Part shown: positions 33 through 13,077 of the stretch, piece by piece
Numbering within the stretch: position 1 is the stretch's first letter
How the letters are laid out: each line of letters opens with the position of its first letter
From: Rhodothermus sp.
Lineage (GTDB): Bacteria; Bacteroidota; Rhodothermia; Rhodothermales; Rhodothermaceae
DNA: 62,791 nucleotides
Assembly (NCBI GenBank): GCA_030950375.1
Contig: JAUZRN010000059.1
Span: 1-62,791 of the forward strand
Reading direction: 5' to 3'
Notes under the pieces: model-generated
Seen by the model: only the letters and a program-made list of their open reading frames with translations
Databases searched by the model: none
Told to the model about the DNA's origin: nothing
Translations under genes and position numbers: made by a program

Positions 33-1343
33 TTACAGGGAGGCGGCGTCGGATGACTGGGTGTTGGGCACTCCGGCGTATGCAGGTGGCTCGAAAAGAA
101 GACGCGGCATGAGTTGGTCGCGCAGATGGAAGAAGGCGTCGCGCAGCGAGTCGGGCACCGGCTTGCCGGGCGGCAGCTTTTCGCGCAGGGGATCCACCTG
201 ACGGCCGTTCTTCCAGAAGCGGTAGCATACATGCGGCCCGGTGGCCAGGCCGGTGCTGCCCACGTAGCCGATCACCTGCCCCTGGCGCACGCGCACGCCC
301 CGCCGAATGCCTTTCGCAATGCGCGAAAAGTGCAGGTAGCCCGTGGTGTAGGTCGCGTTGTGCCGGATTTTGACATAGTAGCCGTTGTAGCGTGTGTAAC
401 CGGCCGCAACGACCACGCCATCGCCGGTAGCATAGACGGGCGTGCCGGCCGGCGCAGCATAGTCGGTGCCCAGATGGGGCTTGTAGCGCTTCTGAATCGG
501 ATGGAAGCGACGCAGGCTGTAGCGCGAAGTGATCCGACGGTAGCGCAGCGGCGCTTTCAGGAAAGCCTTGCGCAGATTGCGGCCGTTTTCATCGTAGTAA
601 TCCACGCGGCCGGCATGCTCGAAGCGAAACGCGTAGAAATCCTTGCCCCGGTGTTGAAAGCGCGCAGCCAGCACCCGCGCAATGTCTATCGGCTTTCCAT
701 CCAGGCGCGTTTCTTCGTAGAGGGCCACGAAGCGGTCGCCCCGCTGGATCCGGTAGAAGTCAATCTGCCAGGCAAAAATCTCCGACAGGCGAATGGCCAG
801 TTCGGGATCGGTCGCGTTCGCCTGTAGCGTCTCGTACAGGGAGCGCTCGATCACGCCCCGAGCGGTGCGCAGCACGCGCTCAACGGCGCGTCGGCCTGTA
901 TAGACCCGCATCGGCTCACGTCGGTCGAACACAACGTAGCGCACGGGGTCGGGCTGATAGATGAACACACGTGCGCTGATGGTGTCGCGGTAGATGTGCA
1001 GCGGACGACCGGCCTGCATCCGCCGTACGTCGAACACGCCCTGGGCTGCTTCGGCCAGGGCCAGCACTTCGGCGTAGGGCACGTCATAGCGCGTCAGGAT
1101 GTCGGCAAACGTCTCGCCTCGTCGGATGCGATGCGTGCTGCGCACGAACTGTCCCTCTTCGATGCCAAAAGTATCGTAGAGAATCCTGACAGGTCGAGTG
1201 ATGGCGTGAGGCGCTGCAGGAGCTGGCTCCGGGCTCTGAGCAGGAATTTGTTGAGCGTACCAGATGGTCCCCCATGCGACACCAATCACCAGCAGGGAAA
1301 AAAGAAACCGGTATTTTCTTTTCGGCGAACGACGCGTTGCCAT
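33..1343 (-). CDS. Membrane-anchored M23 family metallopeptidase
   Basis: Predicted cell-wall endopeptidase acting on peptidoglycan cross-links from the outer face of the inner membrane. From the ATG at 1343 the protein has 436 residues: a basic N-terminus, one membrane anchor at about residues 10-30, a LysM/OapA-like segment near 60-100 (HRIRRGETFADIL), and a C-terminal LytM domain. Zinc-site residues are H290 and D294 in KPHLGTDY, H338 in GYLHFS, and H371 in GPHVCYRF. The last motif has Cys where HxH normally has its second His; I recall this as a variant in Bacteroidetes-type M23 proteins. A TTG at 1373 would add ten residues, but the ATG sits directly before the basic anchor. It follows hutG on the same strand but has no obvious functional link to it. 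Confidence 0.88.
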   Translation of the reverse strand: MATRRSPKRKYRFLFSLLVIGVAWGTIWYAQQIPAQSPEPAPAAPHAITRPVRILYDTFGIEEGQFVRSTHRIRRGETFADILTRYDVPYAEVLALAEAAQGVFDVRRMQAGRPLHIYRDTISARVFIYQPDPVRYVVFDRREPMRVYTGRRAVERVLRTARGVIERSLYETLQANATDPELAIRLSEIFAWQIDFYRIQRGDRFVALYEETRLDGKPIDIARVLAARFQHRGKDFYAFRFEHAGRVDYYDENGRNLRKAFLKAPLRYRRITSRYSLRRFHPIQKRYKPHLGTDYAAPAGTPVYATGDGVVVAAGYTRYNGYYVKIRHNATYTTGYLHFSRIAKGIRRGVRVRQGQVIGYVGSTGLATGPHVCYRFWKNGRQVDPLREKLPPGKPVPDSLRDAFFHLRDQLMPRLLFEPPAYAGVPNTQSSDAASL

Positions 1344-1430
1344 ACCGTCCTGCGGCCCGTGAAAACGACGCAAATGGTTATCAGAATATACGGAGGGCCG
1401 AATTACCGCAAAATCGGCACCAAAGATTTT

Positions 1431-2381
1431 TCAGGATATTCGCTCGGTCAGTCCGCAGAAATACATCCAGAGGGTAAGGGCAGCCAGGCGGATGGTCTGT
1501 CGATCGCGGTCCAGGCGCGGGTTGCATTCGACCAGGTCGATGGAGCGGACGGTCGGGCAGCGGCCGGCTTCGTAGGCGGCCTGCAACCAGTGTTCGGGCG
1601 ACAGGCCATCGGTGGCCGGAGCGCTGACACCCGGCGCGAAGGCCTGATCGACCGCATCCAGATCAAAACTGACCATAAGCGGTGTGGGGGCCTGGTGGTA
1701 AAGGGCAGTGATGCGATCAGCGGTCAGCGCATCCCGCCATACATAGTGGGCGTGATGCTGCTGCAGGAAGTGCAGATGTTCGGGCGCAGTGCTATGCGGT
1801 AGCAGACCGGCGACCGTGTAGCTACGACAAATGCTGGAGGGATGCGTAAGGGCCTGTCGGAAAGGCGAACCCGAGTGGGCCCGGCCATTGCGCAGCGGAC
1901 GCACGTCGGCATGAGCATCCCAGTTCAGGATGTGGACGGGTTGGCCGGCGTGCACATAGGCCAGAAAGTGTGCATAGGCGGTCTCATGCCCGCCTCCCAG
2001 GATAACAAGGAGCTTTCCGTCGCGCAGCAGTGGGGCTATGAGCTGCCCGAAGTGCTCCTGCGAGGCTTCCAGCGTGCGTTTCAGGCGCAGATCGCCCAGA
2101 TCGAGCGTATGTTCCAGCAGCTCGATAAAGGGCGCGCTGGCACGCGGATCGGGCGTTAGCCGGTAGAAAGCTTCGCGAATGGCCTGAGGAGCCTGGCGGG
2201 CGCCGGGGCGGCCTCCATTGCGGCGCACGCCGGTGTCGGAGGGAAAACCCACCAGGACGACGGTGGCTTCTTCGATAGACCGGACGGCTCGTCCGAGCAG
2301 CTGGCCCACGCGCAGGTCTGTCGGATCCCAGGGTGTGGGCGGAGGAGGCGGGGGGCGAAAAGCGTCAGCCGGCAAAGTCAT
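1431..2381 (-). CDS. hutG: Formimidoylglutamase (arginase family), HutG-like
   Basis: Last step of histidine degradation: formimidoylglutamate to glutamate and formamide. The 316-residue product is a ureohydrolase. Metal-binding motifs are visible: GGGHE, the NWDAHADVR motif and SFDLDAVD, which together supply the His/Asp ligands of the binuclear Mn site. The ATG at 2381 is preferred over an in-frame codon 30 residues upstream because MTLPADAF starts the conserved part; it makes the gene overlap the end of hutI by 17 bases. It is the terminal gene of hutU-H-I-G. Arginase or agmatinase is the alternative from the fold alone, but the operon context favours HutG. Confidence 0.9.
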   Translation of the reverse strand: MTLPADAFRPPPPPPTPWDPTDLRVGQLLGRAVRSIEEATVVLVGFPSDTGVRRNGGRPGARQAPQAIREAFYRLTPDPRASAPFIELLEHTLDLGDLRLKRTLEASQEHFGQLIAPLLRDGKLLVILGGGHETAYAHFLAYVHAGQPVHILNWDAHADVRPLRNGRAHSGSPFRQALTHPSSICRSYTVAGLLPHSTAPEHLHFLQQHHAHYVWRDALTADRITALYHQAPTPLMVSFDLDAVDQAFAPGVSAPATDGLSPEHWLQAAYEAGRCPTVRSIDLVECNPRLDRDRQTIRLAALTLWMYFCGLTERIS

Positions 2382-3597
2382 CGTCACGGACGCGTTTTCC
2401 TCTGACAAACGTGGCCTGGACTGCGTTGGGGCGAAAATGATACAGCCAGTGGTCGACGTCTTCGGCTTCAATTAAAATGAAATCGGCTTTTTTGCCGGGC
2501 TCGAGCGACCCCAGCTCGTGAGCACGTCCGATAGCCCGGGCCGCATAGAGGGTGGCCCCTTTCAGTGCTTCGGCCGGCGTCAGACCGCAGAGGACGCAGG
2601 CCAGTGTCATGGCCAGAGGCAGGTGATAGGAGGGGGCACTGCCCGGGTTGAAGTCGGTCGCTACGGCTACTGGGACACCGGCGTCGATGAAGCGCCGGGC
2701 GTCCATGGGCCGCTGCCGCAGGTAGAGCGTGGCGATCGGCAATGCGACAGCCACTACGCCGGCGCGGGCCATGGCCTGGATCCCTTCGTCGGAGGCGTAC
2801 TCCAGGTGGTCGGCCGAAATGGCACCGACCTCGGCAGCCAGCCGAGCCCCGCCGCCATCGTGCAGCTGATCGGCGTGCAGCTTGGGGCGCAGCCCGAACG
2901 CTTTGCCCCGTTCCAGAATCTGACGGGCTTCCTCCACGGTGAAGGCTGTTTCTTCTACAAACACGTCACAGAAGTCGGCCAGTCGCTCGCGTCCCACGTA
3001 CGGAATCAGTTCATCCAGTAACCATTGCAGGTATGCTTCGCGGCGATTGGCATATTCCGGCGGCACTACGTGGGCGGCCAGCAGCGTGGCAACCAGCCGG
3101 AGCGGCTGGTGCGTTTGCAGGCGCCAATAGACCTGCAATAGCTTTAGCTCTTCTTCGAAGGACAGTCCGTAGCCGGTCTTGGCTTCAACGGTGGTGATGC
3201 CCAGGCGGGCCATTTCGCGCAGAAAATCCAGGCAGCGGCGGTAGAGGTCCTCCTCCGAAGCGGCCCGTGTCTGCGCTACTGTACGACGGATGCCGCCGCC
3301 CTGACGGGCAATTTCCAGATAAGAGACCCCCTGACAGCGTAGCCGAAACTCCTCGGCACGCCAGCCACCGAAGGCCAGGTGCGTATGGCAGTCGATCAAA
3401 CCGGGCGCTACCAGGCAGCCGCTCGCATCAAGACGTTGCTCTCTGCGAAAGCGGGTGGGCAGTTCGGCTTCCGGGCCCACCCACAGGATGGTGTCGTCTT
3501 TCCAGACCAGCGCAGCCCGTTCAATGGGATGCAGGGCGGCCTGTCCACCTTCTGCCCGGCAGGTCAGTAGCTGTCGGATGTTGGTCAGGACCGGCAT
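2365..3597 (-). CDS. hutI: Imidazolonepropionase
   Basis: Third enzyme of histidine degradation, hydrolysing 4-imidazolone-5-propionate to formimidoylglutamate. It is an amidohydrolase-superfamily protein of 410 residues, the usual length. The metal motif DCHTHLAFGG lies at about residues 69-78, KLHADQLHDGGG holds further ligand/catalytic His residues, SADHLEYAS follows, and ATDFNPGS carries the late catalytic Asp. The start codon overlaps the hutH stop by one base (TGATG), so translation is probably coupled. Its 3' end overlaps hutG. Confidence 0.96.
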   Translation of the reverse strand: MPVLTNIRQLLTCRAEGGQAALHPIERAALVWKDDTILWVGPEAELPTRFRREQRLDASGCLVAPGLIDCHTHLAFGGWRAEEFRLRCQGVSYLEIARQGGGIRRTVAQTRAASEEDLYRRCLDFLREMARLGITTVEAKTGYGLSFEEELKLLQVYWRLQTHQPLRLVATLLAAHVVPPEYANRREAYLQWLLDELIPYVGRERLADFCDVFVEETAFTVEEARQILERGKAFGLRPKLHADQLHDGGGARLAAEVGAISADHLEYASDEGIQAMARAGVVAVALPIATLYLRQRPMDARRFIDAGVPVAVATDFNPGSAPSYHLPLAMTLACVLCGLTPAEALKGATLYAARAIGRAHELGSLEPGKKADFILIEAEDVDHWLYHFRPNAVQATFVRGKRVRDDDFAG

Positions 3598-5123
3598 CAG
3601 TGCAGCGGACGCAGTTCACGGGCTACCAGATCGGGCAATTCCCGGCTTCGAATCATCGCCAGGCATCGGGCAATGTCCTGCTGGTAGAAGTGGTCGGCTT
3701 CTCGGTGCGGAACGTGTTGGCGAACATACCGGTGAACGATCTCCACGCCCCGACCGGGACGCAGGGGCAGCCGATAGTCGAGGGCCTGGGCCGCTGTGAA
3801 CAGTTCAATAGCCAGCACGTGCTCGACGTTCTCCAGGATGGTCAGCAGCTTTAGCGCACTGATACTGCCCATGCTCACATGGTCTTCCTGTCCCAGGCTG
3901 GTCGGGATCGAATCGACCGAAGCGGGATGGCAGAGCACTTTGTTCTCGGAGACCAGGGCAGCCGCCGTGTACTGAGGAATCATGAAGCCCGAGTTGATAC
4001 CGGTATCTTTCATCAGCAGACGTGGCAGTCCGTCGTGCCCTTCCAGCAGCAGATAGGTGCGGCGCTCCGAGATGCTGGCCAGCTCGGCCAGGGCCATGGC
4101 GGCCAGGTCAAGGGCCAGCGCCAGCGGCTGGCCGTGGAAATTGCCGCCGCTGAGGATATCGCCGTTTTCGAAGACGAGCGGATTGTCGGTAGCCGAATTG
4201 ATCTCGACCTCTACCACGCGACGGGCATAATCGAGCGCATCGCGGCTGGCGCCGTGCACCTGGGGCACACAGCGCAGGCAGTACGGATCCTGGACTTTGC
4301 CGCAGTGCCGATGGGACTCCAGAATTTCGCTGTCGATCAGCAACGTACGGATGTTTTCAGCAACACGGGCCTGACCGGGATGCGGACGTACGGCCTGAAT
4401 ACGGGGATCAAAGGGCTTGATGCTTCCCTGGAGCGCTTCCAGGCTCATGGCAGCCAGAATATCGGCCACCTTTACCAGATGGATCGCTTTTTCAAGCACG
4501 TAAGCGCCGCAGGCGCTCATGAGCTGGGTGCCGTTGATGAGCGACAGGCCGTCTTTGGGCTGGAGCCGGATGGGAGCCAGGCCGGCTTCAGCCAGCACCT
4601 CGGAGGCCGGACGTACCGCGGTGCCGTTGTCGTTCCAGAAGTAGCCCTGTCCGATCAAAGGCAGGGCCATGTGGGCCAGCGGAGCCAGGTCGCCCGAGGC
4701 TCCCACGCTTCCCCGGCTGGGCACGGCCGGGATCAGGTCGCGCTCGGCAAAGTCCAGCAAGCGCTCGAACGTCGGTACCGAGATGCCCGAGTAGCCCAGC
4801 CCCAGGGCGTGGATTTTCAGGAGTAGCATCAACCGGCATAGTTCTCGAGGAAGCCAGGGACCTACGCCAACCGCGTGACTGATGAGCAGGTTTTCCTGAA
4901 GTTGCGCCAGCCGGTCGGCCGGGATGCGGGTACGTGCCAGGGCCCCGAAGCCCGTGTTGATGCCGTAGTAAACGCCACCACTTTGCAGGGCGGCCTCAAC
5001 GCGGGCGCGCGACGTGGCTACTGCCGCATGATCCCGACGCAACTCCTCAATGCGCCGCTCCAGATCTTCATAGAGCGAGGCGATCCGTACTGTAAGCTCC
5101 AGCGTGGGCAACGGATATTCCAT
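3597..5123 (-). CDS. hutH: Histidine ammonia-lyase
   Basis: Converts L-histidine to urocanate and ammonia. The 508-residue protein has the Ala-Ser-Gly triad (residues 142-144, in SVGASGDLAPLAH) that cyclises autocatalytically into the MIO electrophile. YYGINTGFG near residue 52 and the later QDHVSMG-type and ENG-type active-site loops are present. Length and order match the MIO ammonia-lyase family, and the hut neighbours exclude phenylalanine or tyrosine lyase as the likelier role. It is separated from hutU by a 337-base gap but read in the same direction, and it overlaps hutI by one base. Confidence 0.97.
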   Translation of the reverse strand: MEYPLPTLELTVRIASLYEDLERRIEELRRDHAAVATSRARVEAALQSGGVYYGINTGFGALARTRIPADRLAQLQENLLISHAVGVGPWLPRELCRLMLLLKIHALGLGYSGISVPTFERLLDFAERDLIPAVPSRGSVGASGDLAPLAHMALPLIGQGYFWNDNGTAVRPASEVLAEAGLAPIRLQPKDGLSLINGTQLMSACGAYVLEKAIHLVKVADILAAMSLEALQGSIKPFDPRIQAVRPHPGQARVAENIRTLLIDSEILESHRHCGKVQDPYCLRCVPQVHGASRDALDYARRVVEVEINSATDNPLVFENGDILSGGNFHGQPLALALDLAAMALAELASISERRTYLLLEGHDGLPRLLMKDTGINSGFMIPQYTAAALVSENKVLCHPASVDSIPTSLGQEDHVSMGSISALKLLTILENVEHVLAIELFTAAQALDYRLPLRPGRGVEIVHRYVRQHVPHREADHFYQQDIARCLAMIRSRELPDLVARELRPLH

Positions 5124-5460
5124 GGTAGCTACAGAGTCCTGTCAACAAGTAGGTCCGGCTTCTCCTGCTCCCTTTCGCCCGCGGCAATGGTCACTCCCAA
5201 ACCGTACTATGTCACGGACAACGCCATTGTTCAGATCATACGGGAAACAAGCAGGTACCTGCTCAGCGCGGGCAATATTTCCGGCTGCTGAACTGAAGGT
5301 GCTTTGTTCTTCTGGCGCGGAAGATGCGTTCAGCATTTTTCCAGAATGCGGTGCATACCAGGCCATGTGTGTTCCGTTGTCGCGCAGCCGCCGTGCACAA
5401 CGGGGAGGCAACGATCAGACCCTGGCGGCGGTGGACGTCCAGCACTCCGGTGGAGCCGCT
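5124..5460. other. Intergenic stretch inside the hut operon, no convincing gene
   Basis: This gap lies between the hutU stop and the hutH start, both on the minus strand. Short open frames on either strand show no family features, and I do not call them. It holds a perfect 14-base palindrome (5250-5263) and an 8-base inverted repeat (5286-5293 with 5328-5335) separated by 34 bases. The gap may therefore carry a second promoter or control site for hutH-I-G. Confidence 0.5.
5250..5263. promoter_or_regulatory. Perfect 14-base palindrome upstream of hutH
   Basis: AGCAGGTACCTGCT reads identically on both strands. It lies about 130 bases upstream of the hutH start, in a gap long enough for a promoter. 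It resembles a dimeric repressor site, but I cannot assign a regulator; it does not look like the known HutC operator. Confidence 0.35.
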
Positions 5461-7125
5461 TCAGCCAGTGATCATGGGGAGGTCGAGGCCGCGTTCACGG
5501 GCGGTCTGGATCGCCAGCTCATAGCCGGCATCAGCATGGCGCATGACGCCGGTTCCAGGGTCGGCCGTCAGTACCCGTTCCAGGCGGAAGTCGGCCTGCT
5601 CGGTGCCGTCGGCCACGCAGACCATGCCGGCGTGGATGGCGTAGCCGATACCCACGCCACCGCCGTGGTGGATTGATACCCAGCTGGCGCCGCAGGCTGT
5701 GTTGAGCAGGGCGTTGAGCAGCGGCCAGTCGGCGATGGCATCGGAGCCATCTTTCATGCCTTCCGTTTCCCGGTTGGGCGAGGCGACCGAGCCGGCGTCC
5801 AGATGATCGCGCCCGATCACGATCGGGGCTTCGATTTTGCCTTTGCGAACGAGCCAGTTGAATTTCAGACCCATTTCAGCGCGTTCTCCATATTCGAGCC
5901 AGCAGATGCGGGCAGGCAGCCCCTGAAAGCGCACTTTTTCACGTGCTTTCTGAATCCAGCGTACCAGGCTTTCTTTGTGGGGGAACGTTTCGATGACGGC
6001 CTGGTCGGTGACGGCAATGTCGTTCGGGTTGCCCGAGAGAGCCGCCCAGCGGAACGGTCCAGCACCCCGGCAGAAAAGAGGACGAATGAAGGCCGGCACG
6101 AAGCCGGGAATGCGGAAGGCTTCTTTCATGCCCCGGTGGTCGGCCACCTGCCCGCGCAGGTTGTTGCCGTAGTCGAAGACGATGGCGCCCAGCTCCTGCA
6201 GTTTCAGCATTGCTTCGACATGCTGCTGCATCGAGTCGAGAACCGCCTCTTCGTAGCCTTTCGGGTCTTTTTCGCGGAAGGCAGCGGCCGATTCTACGGT
6301 ATGGCCGGCCGGAATGTAGCCGTAGCGCAGGTCATGGGCAGCCGTCTGGTCGGTAACCACGTCGGGCACAATGCCCCGGCGCACGAGTTCAGGAAGCACA
6401 TCGGCAATATTGCCCAAAAGACCCACCGAAAGAGCTTCGCCATTTTCACGAGCCCGCAGCACCCTGGCCAGCGCTTCGTCCAGGTCGGTGCACATTTCGT
6501 CCAGATAGCCGGTTTCCAGACGGCGACGAATGCGGGCTGGATCCACCTCGACCCCCAGGAAAGCGGCTTCATTCATTGTAGCGGCCAGTGGCTGAGCGCC
6601 GCCCATGCCGCCTAACCCGGCCGTTACCACCAGCCGGCCTTTCAGCGAACCACCGAAGTGCTGGCGGGCGCACTCGGCGAACGTCTCGTAGGTGCCCTGC
6701 AGAATGCCCTGCGTGCCGATGTAGATCCAGGAGCCGGCCGTCATCTGCCCGTACATGGTCAGGCCCAGTGCTTCCAGTCGACGGAATTCGTCCCACGTGG
6801 CCCAGCGGGGCACCAGGTTACTGTTGGCGATGAGCACGCGCGGGGCCATTTCATGCGTACGAAAGACACCGACTGGCTTGCCGCTCTGCACGAGCAGCGT
6901 CTCGTCGTTTTCCAAACGTTTGAGGGTTTCCACGATCTTGTGAAAGCAACTCCAGTTGCGAGCTGCCTTACCGGTACCTCCGTAGACAATCAGTTCTTCA
7001 GGTTTTTCAGCAACTTCGGGGTCCAGGTTGTTCATCAGCATGCGAAGAGCCGCCTCCTGGTGCCATCCCTTACAGTGGAGCTGCGTGCCGCGTGGAGCGC
7101 GTACGGTGATCGGCGTCGTTTCCAT
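5461..7125 (-). CDS. hutU: Urocanate hydratase
   Basis: Adds water to urocanate to give imidazolonepropionate, the second step of histidine catabolism, using tightly bound NAD+ as electrophile. The 554-residue product has normal family length. Visible landmarks are the N-terminal [11 protein letters not shown] motif, the [13 protein letters not shown]-binding loop near residue 170, and C-terminal [13 protein letters not shown] and [14 protein letters not shown] motifs. It is first in the hut operon. Its upstream region carries an AAGCGCTT palindrome that also occurs in front of phenylacetate genes. Confidence 0.97.
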
Positions 7126-7762: not shown

Positions 7763-8551
7763 TCATGGAGAGGGTGTGGTTTCAGTGATCGGATGAAGAT
7801 ACTGAAGGCAGGGTGTGCCGTCGGGCAGCCGGTGGATGCGGGCAGCCATGCGGAAGACGCGGGCGATCAGGTCTTCGGTGAGCACCGCGGAGGGCAATCC
7901 GTCGGCTACAAGCCGACCCTGGTGCAGGACGAGCAGGCGGTCGGAGTAGCGGGCAGCCAGCGACAGGTCATGAAAAACAGCCACGACCGTACGACCTTCG
8001 GCAACCAGGCCACGGATGCGCTCAAGCAATTCGAACTGGTAGTGCACGTCCAAATGAGCCGTGGGTTCATCAAGCAGCAGCAGATCAGCTTCCTGGGCCA
8101 GGGCCTGCGCCAGAAAAACGCGTTGCTGCTCTCCGCCGCTGAGCGTGTGAATCAGGCGGTGCGCGGCATCGGCCAGATCGACAGCCGCCAGCGCTGCGTG
8201 TACCCGTGCCCGGTCGGCCGCCGTAAACGGTTCAAGCCAGCCCTTGTGGGGCGCTCGGCCCAGCAGCACGATGTCTTCGACCGTAAAGTCGAAAGAGAGG
8301 GTGGACGTCTGACGCACGACGGCTACCTGCCGGGCCAGCGCCCGACGCGGCCAGCTCTGCAGAGGGCGTCCGCGCAGGTAGAGCTGACCGGCATAGGGTA
8401 GCATTCCGCTGATCGTGCGAATCAGCGTGGTTTTGCCGCTACCGTTTGGTCCCAGCAGGCCCACAAAGGAACCGGACGGGATCTCGAAGGTGAGTCCGTC
8501 CAGAATCGTGCGTCCTCCGAGCGCTACCCGCAACCCGCTGGCTTTGATCAT
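7763..8551 (-). CDS. ABC transporter ATPase, iron-siderophore/cobalamin type
   Basis: ATP-hydrolysing subunit of a FecE/BtuD/HmuV-type importer, 262 residues. Walker A is GPNGSGKTT near residue 36, the Q-loop VVRQTS follows, the signature is LSGGEQQRV, and Walker B with catalytic Glu is LLLLDEPTAHLD. The start used is the ATG at 8551 (MIKASGLRV); a GTG nine bases upstream is also possible. No permease or binding protein is adjacent. Because it precedes the cobalamin adenosyltransferase, corrinoid import (BtuD) is a reasonable guess, but heme or siderophore substrates cannot be excluded. The ATG shares the CATG at 8549-8552 with the divergent gene. Confidence 0.88.
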   Translation of the reverse strand: MIKASGLRVALGGRTILDGLTFEIPSGSFVGLLGPNGSGKTTLIRTISGMLPYAGQLYLRGRPLQSWPRRALARQVAVVRQTSTLSFDFTVEDIVLLGRAPHKGWLEPFTAADRARVHAALAAVDLADAAHRLIHTLSGGEQQRVFLAQALAQEADLLLLDEPTAHLDVHYQFELLERIRGLVAEGRTVVAVFHDLSLAARYSDRLLVLHQGRLVADGLPSAVLTEDLIARVFRMAARIHRLPDGTPCLQYLHPITETTPSP

Positions 8552-9089
8552 GTGCACCACAACGGCTGGTTCCGGAAAGCGATGTCCTTATGCTACGACG
8601 TGCAGACGTCTGACGCAAGCTGCCCTGTTGCTTCTCTGGATTTTGACCGGCTGTGATAGTCGCCAACAGGACGACTTTCTACGCGCGGCGTTTCAACCAC
8701 CGGCAGGCTTTACGCGCACAGACGCAAACGGACAGGTGCTGTCGGAAGACCCGGACGACTGGCGTGTAGCTCCTGCCTTTCGGGGCTATCTACGGTTTGA
8801 CCCGGCTTATCCGAACCCCTTTTCCGGGGGCGAAGTGCGGCTGCCGTTTCGTCTTTTTTCGCCGCTAAGTGGTACGCTGAGCGTCTGGGCAAAGGATGTA
8901 GAAGGACGCATGCGGCTGCTGGACGAACACCCGTCGCTTGCGCAGCCGGGCACCTACGTGTTTGTGTTTGATCCTACCGTTCTGGCGCCGGATCGTGATC
9001 TGACCCGCCTGCAGGGGCTTCATCGGCTTTACGTCTATCGGGGTAACGATCTGGTTTCGTACGGAGATCTGATGATTCAGGCGCCGTAG
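8550..9089 (+). CDS. Predicted lipoprotein with a YPNPF segment
   Basis: A 179-residue protein of unknown function. The N-terminus has basic residues and a hydrophobic run ending in the lipobox ILTGC, so it should be cleaved and lipidated at Cys. The second half contains FDPAYPNPFSGGEVRLPFRL, which resembles the opening strand of type IX secretion C-terminal sorting domains (YPNPF followed by a beta-rich tail). It is not followed by the rest of a canonical domain and sits on a lipoprotein. The start is uncertain: the ATG at 8550 overlaps the start of the divergent ABC ATPase, and a start closer to the signal peptide is possible. Confidence 0.7.
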   Translation: MCTTTAGSGKRCPYATTCRRLTQAALLLLWILTGCDSRQQDDFLRAAFQPPAGFTRTDANGQVLSEDPDDWRVAPAFRGYLRFDPAYPNPFSGGEVRLPFRLFSPLSGTLSVWAKDVEGRMRLLDEHPSLAQPGTYVFVFDPTVLAPDRDLTRLQGLHRLYVYRGNDLVSYGDLMIQAP

Positions 9090-10215: not shown

Positions 10216-11283
10216 ATGCTGCGTGATACGCGGGCATATTTGCAGGCCTGTCTTCGGGCCTACTGGCAGGGCGATCCGCTGCCTGACCTGACGGGGCTGG
10301 AAGATCCCGTCGGACTGGCGCGCCTGGCCGTACAGCAGGGTGTAGGCGCCTTGCTGTACCGTGCGCTGAAGGCAGCAGGGCCCTTGGAAGTTCCCGGTCG
10401 GATCCTTGGCGTACTGCGGCCCTACTACCTGGCAGCGGTTGCACAGGCGGCCCTGCAGGTTCAGGAAGTGCAGCGGCTGCAGCAGGCGTTTGCGAGGGCT
10501 GGTGTGCCTGCCCTGTTTTACAAAGGGGTCGTACTCGGACAGCTGGCCTATGGCGATCCGGCCTTGCGTCCGGCTACGGACATTGACGTGCTGGTAATGC
10601 CGGCAGCGTTCAAATCGGCTGAATCCGTTCTGCTGACCCTGGGGTATCAGCGAGATGTGCCACATCAGGGGCTGGTTCGCCGGGTGTATCTGTGTTTTCA
10701 GCGGGAGCACCCGTACCGGTTGCCGGATCGGATGCAGATGGTTGATCTGCATCTGAGCATCGCGCCATGGCGTTTTGCACCGGTACAACCGGTATCGTTG
10801 CTATGGACCGACGCTATGCCGGTACTAATGGGCTCGCAGACGGTATGGACGCTGGCGCCGGAGGCGTTGCTGCCACTGCTGTGTTTGCATTGTGCCAAAC
10901 ATCAATGGCGCACTCTGAAATGGATCAACGACGTAGCCGCATTGTTGCGGGCATTCCCGGAGTTGGACTGGGAGCGATTGTGGGCATGGGCTCGCCAGTG
11001 GCAGGGAGTGCGCATGCTGCGGCTGGGGCTTCAGCTGGCACACGAAGGATTGGGCGCTCCACTTCCGTCAACGGTGCTTCGGAGCATAGGACGTGATCGG
11101 CAGGTGGAAAGACTGGTACGACGTGTAAGGGAGGGGTTGTATCGGCCGGATGTCTGGCGGCCTTTCTGGCAGCGGTTTATTTTTCACCTGCGTTCCCGGG
11201 AGCATCCGCTGGCCCGGTGGCGCTACGTGCTCCTGTCGAGCGTGTTTTACACCATGCGTCCGATACTCGGACTCCAGCATTGA
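10216..11283 (+). CDS. Nucleotidyltransferase family protein (NTP_transf_5 type)
   Basis: A 355-residue protein of the nucleotidyltransferase family often found beside lasso-peptide B1/B2 genes and HPr-kinase-like genes. Its core motif is LFYKGVVLGQLAYGDPALRP, then TDIDVLV, where the two Asp residues are the likely metal ligands. A C-terminal helical half contains LCLHCAKHQW and LKWINDVAALLR, typical of this family. The start at the ATG 10216 is supported by the start of the conserved helical region. It is first of four tightly packed genes (8-base gap, then overlaps). The substrate is unknown; possible roles are nucleotidylation of a peptide or of a phosphorylated intermediate. Confidence 0.85.
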   Translation: MLRDTRAYLQACLRAYWQGDPLPDLTGLEDPVGLARLAVQQGVGALLYRALKAAGPLEVPGRILGVLRPYYLAAVAQAALQVQEVQRLQQAFARAGVPALFYKGVVLGQLAYGDPALRPATDIDVLVMPAAFKSAESVLLTLGYQRDVPHQGLVRRVYLCFQREHPYRLPDRMQMVDLHLSIAPWRFAPVQPVSLLWTDAMPVLMGSQTVWTLAPEALLPLLCLHCAKHQWRTLKWINDVAALLRAFPELDWERLWAWARQWQGVRMLRLGLQLAHEGLGAPLPSTVLRSIGRDRQVERLVRRVREGLYRPDVWRPFWQRFIFHLRSREHPLARWRYVLLSSVFYTMRPILGLQH

Positions 11284-11291
11284 GGGTTGTA

Positions 11292-11840
11292 ATGCGGATG
11301 TCTGTACACAGAGGGCAAGTTCAGGGACATGTGCGTCGGGCGCCTGCGACGCCCGATATGGTGCAGCCGCCCTCCCTGTGGCGGTTGCTCCGGTTGAGCT
11401 GGCGCCATCGGGTCTGGCGTAAGTGGCAACGGGGCGATCTGGGACGACTCTGGACGATTTTTCGATTGATTGTCCGCGTTGAGTGGAACCAGCACCGGTT
11501 GCCCCTACCAGGTTTGCTGGCATTATTTGAACCATCGCCGAATACAGCTTTGCTGTCAGAAAAAGAGCTTCAGCGATTGGAACGGCTGGTGCTGGCGGTG
11601 CTCCGGCGGCTGTATGGGCAAGATTTCTGCATGAAGCAGGCGCTGTTGTTGTACTATTTTTACCGAAAGGCTGGAAAGCCCGTTTGCATTCGGTTTGGGG
11701 TCACCCGGGAGAACGGTCAGTTGCGCGGACATGCCTGGGTAGAGTGGAACGACCGGCCAGTGGCTGAGACGGTCGATCCTCGACAACTGTTTGCTATCAC
11801 CTATACGCATCCACCTGATACGACCCGAGCACGTGTATGA
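11292..11840 (+). CDS. Transglutaminase-like protein, lasso-peptide B2 type
   Basis: A 182-residue protein with the Transglut_core3 fold seen in the McjB C-terminal domain, the leader peptidase of lasso-peptide pathways. The Cys-His-Asp triad is visible: Cys in FCMKQALLLYYFYR, His in RGHAWVEWN, and Asp in ETVDPRQLF. A basic, tryptophan-rich N-terminus (about residues 25-75) precedes the domain. GAGGG-type spacing before ATG 11292 supports that start. It overlaps the next gene by four bases (ATGA). With PqqD as possible leader-binding partner this would be a split B1/B2 protease, but no precursor peptide is visible. Confidence 0.85.
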   Translation: MRMSVHRGQVQGHVRRAPATPDMVQPPSLWRLLRLSWRHRVWRKWQRGDLGRLWTIFRLIVRVEWNQHRLPLPGLLALFEPSPNTALLSEKELQRLERLVLAVLRRLYGQDFCMKQALLLYYFYRKAGKPVCIRFGVTRENGQLRGHAWVEWNDRPVAETVDPRQLFAITYTHPPDTTRARV

Positions 11841-12835
11841 CCTATTGTTTTGAGCGGTTTGTTTTGCATTTGGAAAGTGAGACAGGGGCCCTGAGGCGAC
11901 GTGCCGATCAGGTGTTGCAGTATCATCGATTTCAGCCGGTTCGGCATGGAGCATCTCCAGACTGGACCATACGCCTGGTTGTGAAAGTACCGGAGGAGCC
12001 TTCCTGGCCTATAGCCTTTGAGGCTGGGGCGTGTCGGTTGCGGATCGGGGAAGAGGGTTGCTGGCTACAGTACGGGGCCGTGGCGTTTGCGGGTAGTGGC
12101 TCAGAGTGGGAGGGCTATGTGCCGGCTGGTTGCGAAAGACTTCCTGACTTTGCGTATGGATTGGTGCTGGTGATGTGTCTGTTATTGCGCGAGCAAGGCT
12201 GGTTTGGATTGCACGGGGCCGGACTGGTTTATCAGGGGCAGGGGGTGTTGCTGGTTGGACGTAGCGGCGTGGGCAAATCGACGCTGGCCTACAGCCTGGT
12301 GCGTTGTGGCTGGCATTTTCTGACGGACGATGCGCTGATGATATATCGGGAGGGGGATGGCATAGAGGCCGTTTCCTTTCGGAAAGACTTCGGCTTGGAG
12401 GTAGGCAGCGCGCGGTATTTTCCCGAGCTGGCTGTCTTTGCAGACCGGCAGCCAACGGATCCGAATAAACGGCGTATTCAGGTAGAGTGTCTGTATCCCG
12501 ACAGGTTTTGCGTGCGCTGTCGGCCTGCACTTCTGGTGTTTCCGGAGCGTGCGCATGCGGTGCAAAGCCGACTGCAGCCGCTACGGCGCAGCGAAGCATT
12601 TGTGCGGTTGTTGCAGGCTGGGCTGATGCTCTGGCGTGCAGACGATCCGATGGAATGGCGTTTGCTTGAGGTTATGCGCCGGCTGGTTCAGCAGGCACCG
12701 GCTTATCTGTTGCAGCTCGGCCTGGATGTGTTCGACCAGCCAGAGCGTCTGGAGCGATTGCTCCATCCAATGCAACGATTGGTTCACCAGTCCGGAGGAG
12801 GATCATGGCCCGTTACGAACCGGATCCGCGTGTGA
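11837..12835 (+). CDS. HPr kinase-like P-loop protein
   Basis: A 332-residue protein whose C-terminal half matches the HprK/serine-kinase fold. Walker A is LLVGRSGVGKSTLAYSLV near residues 140-157, followed by HFLTDDALMI, the position of the HprK metal-binding acidic residues. HGAGLVYQGQGVLL just before is also HprK-like. The N-terminal half, about 1-120, is beta-rich and typical of the cassette rather than of true HprK, and there is no HPr gene nearby. In lasso-type clusters such kinases phosphorylate the precursor C-terminus; here the substrate is unknown. It overlaps the gene before by 4 bases and PqqD by 31 bases. Confidence 0.82.
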   Translation: MTYCFERFVLHLESETGALRRRADQVLQYHRFQPVRHGASPDWTIRLVVKVPEEPSWPIAFEAGACRLRIGEEGCWLQYGAVAFAGSGSEWEGYVPAGCERLPDFAYGLVLVMCLLLREQGWFGLHGAGLVYQGQGVLLVGRSGVGKSTLAYSLVRCGWHFLTDDALMIYREGDGIEAVSFRKDFGLEVGSARYFPELAVFADRQPTDPNKRRIQVECLYPDRFCVRCRPALLVFPERAHAVQSRLQPLRRSEAFVRLLQAGLMLWRADDPMEWRLLEVMRRLVQQAPAYLLQLGLDVFDQPERLERLLHPMQRLVHQSGGGSWPVTNRIRV

Positions 12836-13077
12836 ACTTTACGCGCTTTGACGAAGGGGAAGGGGTGTTATTGCATCTGGAAACCCGGTCGTATTACACG
12901 TTAAATGCGACGGGCGTATTTATCTGGGAGCAGTTGGAGGCTGGGCGGCAGACGGTTGAGGAAGTGGTGGAGGCCTTGGTGTCCAGCTATGAGGTAGGGC
13001 GGGAAGTGGCTGAGCGGCAGGTGCGGGCTTTTCTGGAAGCGCTGCAGCAGGAGGGGTTGATCACGCGTCGGGCATGA
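12805..13077 (+). CDS. PqqD family protein (RiPP recognition element)
   Basis: A 90-residue PqqD-like protein. The family pattern is clear: a three-stranded beta-wing (EGEGVLLHLETRSYYTLN), then ATGVFIWEQLEAGR and a helical bundle ending in FLEALQQEGLI. PqqD-type domains bind leader peptides and present them to modifying enzymes; the lasso B1 protein is the closest relative by context. It begins inside the end of the kinase gene, so it is probably translationally coupled, and it closes the cassette. Nothing resembling a substrate peptide follows within the next 220 bases on either strand. Confidence 0.87.
   Translation: MARYEPDPRVNFTRFDEGEGVLLHLETRSYYTLNATGVFIWEQLEAGRQTVEEVVEALVSSYEVGREVAERQVRAFLEALQQEGLITRRA

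Follow-up and report, generated by a model that had tools for sequence, protein, structure and literature searches.

The cassette studied here lies at positions 10216 to 13077 of the window, by which we mean the whole contig JAUZRN010000059.1 of Rhodothermus sp. (62,791 nucleotides; assembly GCA_030950375.1), a heat-loving bacterium; it is numbered contig C59 of genome G000 below. An earlier reading of the letters alone (the sequence-only reading) had described it as a lasso-type maturation cassette without precursor or cyclase. All four of its genes match the families named at that time, with scores over the cut-offs of the respective models:

10216..11283, + strand: nucleotidyltransferase (NT) of the NTP_transf_5 family, 355 amino acids (aa), PsmN/LppN-like; PF14907, 191.7 bits (cut-off 31.2)
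11292..11840, + strand: B2-type cysteine protease (B2), a transglutaminase-like leader peptidase; PF13471 (Transglut_core3), 66.6 bits (cut-off 26)
11837..12835, + strand: HprK-like kinase, a putative peptide Ser kinase; PF07475 (Hpr_kinase_C), 38.6 bits (cut-off 33.3)
12805..13077, + strand: PqqD-type recognition element (RRE) for ribosomally synthesised and post-translationally modified peptides (RiPPs); PF05402 (PqqD), 81.6 bits (cut-off 23.4)

Cassette genes and their clade

The four genes form a single tight operon. They had been called overlapping, which holds for B2 and kinase (4 nt) and for kinase and PqqD (31 nt), but not for NT and B2, as the NT stop ends at 11283 and the first in-frame ATG of B2 stands at 11292, leaving a gap of about 8 nt. 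The window B2 is also recognized by the lasso_biosyn_B2 model (NF033537, 63.8 vs. a cut-off of 33), and the PqqD protein stays under the cut-off of lasso_PqqD_Bac (60.4 vs. 80). Of the Cys-His-Asp set proposed for the protease, the Cys and His are invariant in an alignment of 22 B2 sequences, whereas the Asp is replaced by Asn in one Rhodothermus orthologue and is missing in most other B2s. His126, Lys147, Asp164 and Asp165 of the kinase are invariant among 12 relatives and match the His-Lys-Asp-Asp catalytic set reported for lasso kinases (PMC9266682). Among solved structures, the kinase has sequence matches to HPr kinases and the PqqD protein to the lasso B1 protein TbiB1 (1.1e-12), with a weak match to deposited structure 9x8z, titled ‘PqqD family protein’ (4.7e-06); no sequence match among them was found for NT and B2.

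The absence of a precursor, cyclase or exporter beside the cassette was confirmed, in that nothing convincing was found in the flanks. Lasso-leader and looser motifs gave no convincing precursor-like open reading frame (ORF) in the window flanks or in six syntenic loci, and there is no lasso cyclase beside the cassette in the window. The ORF at 7763-8560, for an ATP-binding cassette (ABC) ATPase, is one of the flanking genes and has no recognizable membrane exporter next to it. When short ORFs were compared all against all, compositional noise drowned out any signal.

The kinase, RRE and B2 were compared with the lasso-cluster homologues of the same order. The window kinase, its four genus orthologues and 12 kinases from cyclase-less loci form one clade (support 100/100) on a branch of length 2.0; the 32 kinases of lasso clusters, among them the ones from these Rhodothermus genomes, all fall outside it. 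The PqqD tree gave the same split (Shimodaira-Hasegawa-like approximate likelihood ratio test 99), except for one very long-branched lasso sequence. In the B2 tree the window B2s join the second B2 of genome G025, which adjoins a kinase of the cyclase-free clade, apart from the lasso-cluster B2s (100/99), a split to be treated with some care as long branches meet there. The label ‘lasso-type’ was therefore misleading for three of the four genes, whose clade is cyclase-free, and an ordinary lasso satellite as the sole explanation was rejected on the three trees. Because kinase, RRE and B2 fall in clades apart from their lasso-cluster homologues, the cassette is more than a lasso satellite; it appears to be a non-lasso relative of the linear polyphosphorylated peptide (LPP) RiPPs. 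A phylum-wide search gave matches to this kinase type only within the order, a restriction that is provisional because the first look scored just five candidates per genome; a scan of genome contigs gave no relative of the kinase.

The cassette stands at the same place, flanked by the same Sua5 and HNH genes, in all seven genomes compared from Rhodothermus, a genus that NCBI places in Rhodothermota. It is complete in five of them, and only B2 and PqqD are left in the other two, G001 and G004. NT orthologues are encoded in four Rhodothermus genomes besides our own, while G004 carries an NT pseudogene with stops and G001 has no NT. A tree of the flanking genes places G004 with kinase-bearing genomes (support 0.80) and has G001 branching apart, and the two absences are therefore probably separate events.

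A candidate precursor beside a secreted protein

In loci of relatives, short leader-bearing peptides adjoin genes of the cyclase-free clade (G024, G025, G040, G051, G052, G055, G056, G061 and G062). G024 and G025 encode a homologous pair of such peptides (..FVPPMLKTHGTLSIQAGSINLWDKK and ..YEPPAITQSGTLKIQAGSICLWTKC), and G055 and G056 hold the full module in one locus, in the order secreted protein of the type IX secretion system (T9SS) type, peptide, kinase, PqqD, B2 and NT; G055 has in addition a separate lasso cluster with its own B2. Eight of the relatives' peptides, with no Rhodothermus sequence among them, were made into a profile for a search of the seven Rhodothermus genomes. The best matches in five of these genomes, our own included (..RPFEPPRLEYQGRLTEQTTGVFSFS), are one orthologous gene. 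The copy in our genome (G000:C19:118861-119010) encodes 49 residues, MRTNTTTQKASASTTHQTPATERRRPFEPPRLEYQGRLTEQTTGVFSFS. With a leave-one-group-out model built from other genera only, the peptides score 22.7-29.0 bits. Among controls, about 1.07 Mb of loci searched with the full model, the best match reached 16.0 bits and is again a leader-bearing peptide, that of G095; outside such peptides the highest score was 8.9 bits.

The leader motif F-x-P-P-x-L reads FEPPRL in the five Rhodothermus genomes and has Tyr or Phe at the aromatic place in relatives. The C-terminal part of the peptide is conserved, with a terminal Ser in five of five Rhodothermus peptides, and none of their candidate cores (e.g. 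GVFSFS, GGSFNFS, GGGFRFS) contains Asp or Glu, so that a lasso ring is impossible for the five cores as predicted. At position 10 the leader motif (F.PP.L...G.L) has a Gly in the peptides of L073, L124, L125, L126 and Rhodothermus, all from genomes with a window-type B2. This Gly is missing in those of L070, L072, L074, L081 and L082, from genomes without one, and may mark B2 processing.

The peptide accompanies kinase and NT in all five complete genomes and in neither of the two reduced ones: the profile search did not find a peptide of this type in G001 and G004, which lack kinase and NT and retain B2, PqqD and the lasso cluster described below. This pattern suggests that kinase and NT are tied to the peptide, and B2 and RRE to the lasso cluster, although co-occurrence across seven genomes is suggestive, not conclusive. 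On present sequence evidence the C19 peptide is the most likely substrate of the cassette, encoded away from its enzymes, in keeping with the earlier proposal that the substrate is encoded elsewhere.

In the five Rhodothermus genomes dnaG is followed by a gene whose secreted product measures about 850-900 aa, and this in turn by the peptide gene, which in our own genome begins 15 bp behind. The secreted protein, of LTD/beta-helix type, has an LTD-like start and a T9SS-type C-terminal end. A T9SS-type C-terminal domain lies within 1.5 kb of the peptide in 14 of 15 cases, mostly directly upstream on the same strand, as against 1 of 25 for lasso-type precursors, in a count whose profile was seeded partly from the same proteins and thus favours the peptide group. 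The sole exception among the latter, in G095, is part of a cassette, and its genome gave no lasso cyclase match. A further member, from Rhodothermales bacterium 356-308 (L172), was retrieved via the secreted protein alone and also has the peptide.

A second type of cyclase-less cassette was seen in G091 (L130, 8110-10623) and G095 (L131, 3844-6859), comprised of a peptide (..AEYGGLD..LFAMASP.. core), kinase, NT, PqqD and a B2 of lasso type. No lasso cyclase match was found genome-wide in G095, where the peptide follows a T9SS-type domain.

The rhodolasso cluster and the window B2

The sequence-only reading had advised a genome-wide search for a cyclase, and a lasso-type cyclase, exporter and precursor were indeed found on two other contigs of our genome:

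Contig C66, one strand: glycosyltransferase, NTP_transf_5, GMC oxidoreductase, SAF-domain oxidoreductase, Exo_endo_phos protein, second HprK-like kinase and lasso cyclase (NF033535, 739.7 bits; cut-off 525), ending near the contig edge
Contig C30, start: leader-bearing peptide, ABC exporter and second PqqD

There is an assembly gap between the two. The precursors of same-genus relatives match NCBIfam ‘rhodolasso’ (NF033534/NF033535 cluster). It had been argued that a precursor and cyclase next to a second copy elsewhere would make the cassette only a satellite of a standard lasso cluster. Both do exist, together with further kinase, RRE and transferase copies, but as these copies are of a different clade, it cannot be concluded that the cassette is only a satellite.

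Each of the seven Rhodothermus genomes has a lasso cluster without B2, plus one B2, in the window-type cassette; in our own genome the window B2 is the only Transglut_core3 protein. In G003, assembled as a single contig, kinase, cyclase, precursors, ABC exporter and PqqD are contiguous without B2, and the B2-bearing cassette is located ~880 kb away. All 24 genomes of the order with an over-cut-off lasso cyclase also have a B2 somewhere. Since all these cyclase genomes have a B2 and the Rhodothermus lasso cluster has none of its own, the window B2 probably also serves the lasso pathway as a shared protease. Four genomes have a strong window-type kinase and no over-cut-off cyclase (G030, G052, G075 and G077), and none of these has a B2.

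One possible explanation for these findings, though an improbable one, is that the cassette is a displaced part of the rhodolasso pathway. On that view, cleavage of the lasso leader would fall to B2 and RRE and decoration of the lasso peptide to kinase and NT, and the C19 peptide would have no part in it. The peptidase-less lasso cluster would be accounted for, as would the retention of B2 and PqqD with that cluster in G001 and G004, and the complete genome G041 likewise has a single B2, of window type and unlinked from the cyclase. However, the lasso cluster owns a kinase, an RRE and, in several genomes, an NT; the window copies fall in another clade; and kinase and NT are absent from two genomes with a lasso cluster. 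The rhodolasso precursors of G002-G005, moreover, end in Arg, not Ser. A window-type B2 occurs in G024, G041, G055 and G056 as well as in G025, and because G024, G025 and G055 carry another B2 in the cyclase locus, the window-type enzyme has work of its own in these three genomes, which also speaks against displacement.

Several further observations were made on lasso-related loci. In rhodolasso precursors (L063:11850-12200 and L066:7578-7804; ..GKQGGQYDADLGPGTLSDCR), none of positions 7-9, counted from the usual cleavage site at Thr, is Asp or Glu. The precursor at 18-209 of our contig C30 (L010) has a lasso leader and an extremely His/Gly/Pro-rich core (GSGWGRPPHIPRGWGHHWGHHHPHHGPCP..) with no acidic residue for a ring, and is kept across the genus beside rhodolasso precursors. 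The draft genome G006 has two different lasso cyclase loci, on contigs C60 and C74 (L068, L069), with cyclases 87% and about 55-67% identical to our own. A 472-aa Asn-synthase-like protein on our contig C32 was considered as cyclase of the cassette and rejected, as it has a partial Asn_synthase match only, is missed by the lasso cyclase model and belongs to a separate radical-SAM locus (1228-6422, L009). In that locus it adjoins a radical-SAM-like protein, a protein resembling flavin adenine dinucleotide-dependent oxidoreductases and one more ORF, and a TonB-dependent receptor comes after them; this is possibly another uncharacterised biosynthetic locus.

A proposed pathway and its relation to known systems

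We consider it likely, with a probability of roughly 0.7, that the cassette supplies the enzymes of a cyclase-free RiPP pathway whose genes are split between two places and which leads to a short linear phosphorylated peptide. Taking together the genes, clades, peptide family, T9SS pairing and co-occurrence, enzymes, modification sites and steps might be assigned as follows. The RRE (12805-13077) would bind the F-x-P-P-x-L leader of the C19 precursor, as expected from RRE biology in general. The kinase would phosphorylate the conserved C-terminal Ser, as PadeK and PsmK do (PMC9266682), and the NT may then add a further group, a hexose or a nucleotide, to the phosphoserine; PsmN, its closest characterised homologue, has been linked to hexose addition on phosphoserine (PMC9266682). 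B2 would cleave the leader near a conserved Thr (..EQT), so that about 6-8 residues remain as the core, and the same B2, probably with its RRE, would also remove the leader of the lasso precursors. The two alternatives once offered for the cassette, a substrate encoded elsewhere or a distinct system with a phosphorylated peptide, both look right at once, the latter in view of its position in the cyclase-free kinase/RRE/B2 clade.

A number of points weigh against this proposal. Taken singly, the Rhodothermus peptides have weak profile E-values (0.005-0.125 per genome), their gene is not linked to those of the enzymes, and no exporter gene adjoins the cassette. The co-loss of peptide and kinase/NT rests on two of seven genomes, in both of which the RRE is kept beside B2 although the peptide is gone. 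The terminal Ser is missing from the peptides of G024, G025, G040, G055 and G056, the kinases of G030, G041, G075, G076 and G077 have no visible peptide next to them, and the NT tree, which is uninformative, does not join the window NT to the cyclase-free clade.

The true substrate might also be another, unrecognised peptide and the C19 peptide part of a different pathway, given that the assignment was made by profile similarity and co-occurrence only and that the gap between C66 and C30 may hide further precursors. We regard this as unlikely, and somewhat more so than displacement from the lasso pathway, because in other genera it is the C19 family that adjoins kinases of this clade, and because it follows kinase and NT through two absences. 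That the secreted T9SS-type protein is the real target, to which the RRE brings the kinase while the protein is nascent, with the peptide only a targeting tag or regulator, would agree with the nearly constant pairing of the two genes, but is very improbable since PadeK, PsmK and LppK, all close precedents, phosphorylate the leader-bearing peptide itself (PMC9266682, PMC13381572) and in the C19 peptide the leader motif, the Thr and the terminal Ser follow one another as expected.

The cyclase-free pathway favoured here most resembles the LPP system of Bacillota, described in 2026 (lppA-K-B-S-D-N), which is comprised of precursor, RRE, HprK-like kinase, NTP-transferase, exporter and SpI-like peptidase, without cyclase, and was stated to be Bacillota-restricted (PMC13381572). 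Common to both are a leader-bearing precursor, a discrete RRE, an HprK-like kinase, an NTP-transferase, the lack of a macrolactam cyclase and coexistence with a lasso pathway. The precursors share an aromatic-xxP leader motif and a conserved Thr before the core; FEPPRL agrees with the LPP leader pattern [Y/W]xxPx[L/V], with Phe at the aromatic place. LPP and paeninodin pathways are kept apart by a leader W/Y rule (PMC13381572), and this has a parallel in the FxPP of the C19 peptide and the WxxP of the lasso leaders in the same Rhodothermus genomes. In contrast to LPP, the four-gene operon has a cysteine protease of B2 type in the place of the SpI-like peptidase, lacks an exporter such as the MsbA-like one of the LPP cluster, and has an unlinked precursor paired with a secreted T9SS-type protein. 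The extended motifs (FxPPxLxxxGxL vs. YxxPxVLxHQxIxFETxxS) and the hosts (Rhodothermota vs. Bacillota) also differ, and LppK phosphorylates Ser3 (PMC13381572). Because the SpI peptidase is missing, we do not file the Rhodothermus system as LPP; it is best described, by analogy, as working like LPP.

The lasso pathways of paeninodin and pseudomycoidin (PadeK, PsmK, PsmN; PMC9266682) employ the same B1, B2, HprK-like kinase and NTP_transf_5 families, and C-terminal Ser phosphorylation followed by further transfer, as proposed for the cassette. Unlike these, the cassette has no adjoining cyclase, its candidate cores have no acidic ring residue (Asp/Glu at about 7-9), and its kinase, RRE and B2 are in a clade separate from the lasso homologues of the order. 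The rhodolasso cluster resembles the cassette in its HprK-like kinase, PqqD and, in several genomes, NTP_transf_5, and differs in having cyclase, precursors, ABC exporter, WxxP leaders, a lasso-clade kinase and RRE, and no B2. The HPr-rel-A system (TIGR04352/TIGR04353) also has a kinase and PqqD pair without cyclase, but membership was rejected as both proteins are far under the curated cut-offs (kinase 47.3 vs. 200, TIGR04352; PqqD 23.7 vs. 35, TIGR04353). We found no description of such a system in Rhodothermota in the open-access literature, most subscription papers being outside the search.

More tentatively, and with somewhat less than even confidence, we propose that Rhodothermota have a RiPP class of their own, whose leader-bearing precursor is cotranscribed with a secreted T9SS-type surface protein and its linear, terminally phosphorylated and perhaps glycosylated product works with that protein at the cell surface, the Rhodothermus pathway being split and its B2 shared with a peptidase-less lasso pathway. 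So far, linear phosphorylated RiPPs have been described only in Bacillota, where the leader peptidase is signal-peptidase-like (PMC13381572). If the proposal is true, lasso enzymes would have been turned to cyclase-free products more than once, with a B2-based, T9SS-associated version in Rhodothermota, and the role of linear phosphorylated peptides would become testable via a defined secreted partner. It would also mean that a lasso cluster can borrow its protease from another pathway, an arrangement that would be overlooked by cluster-based genome mining.

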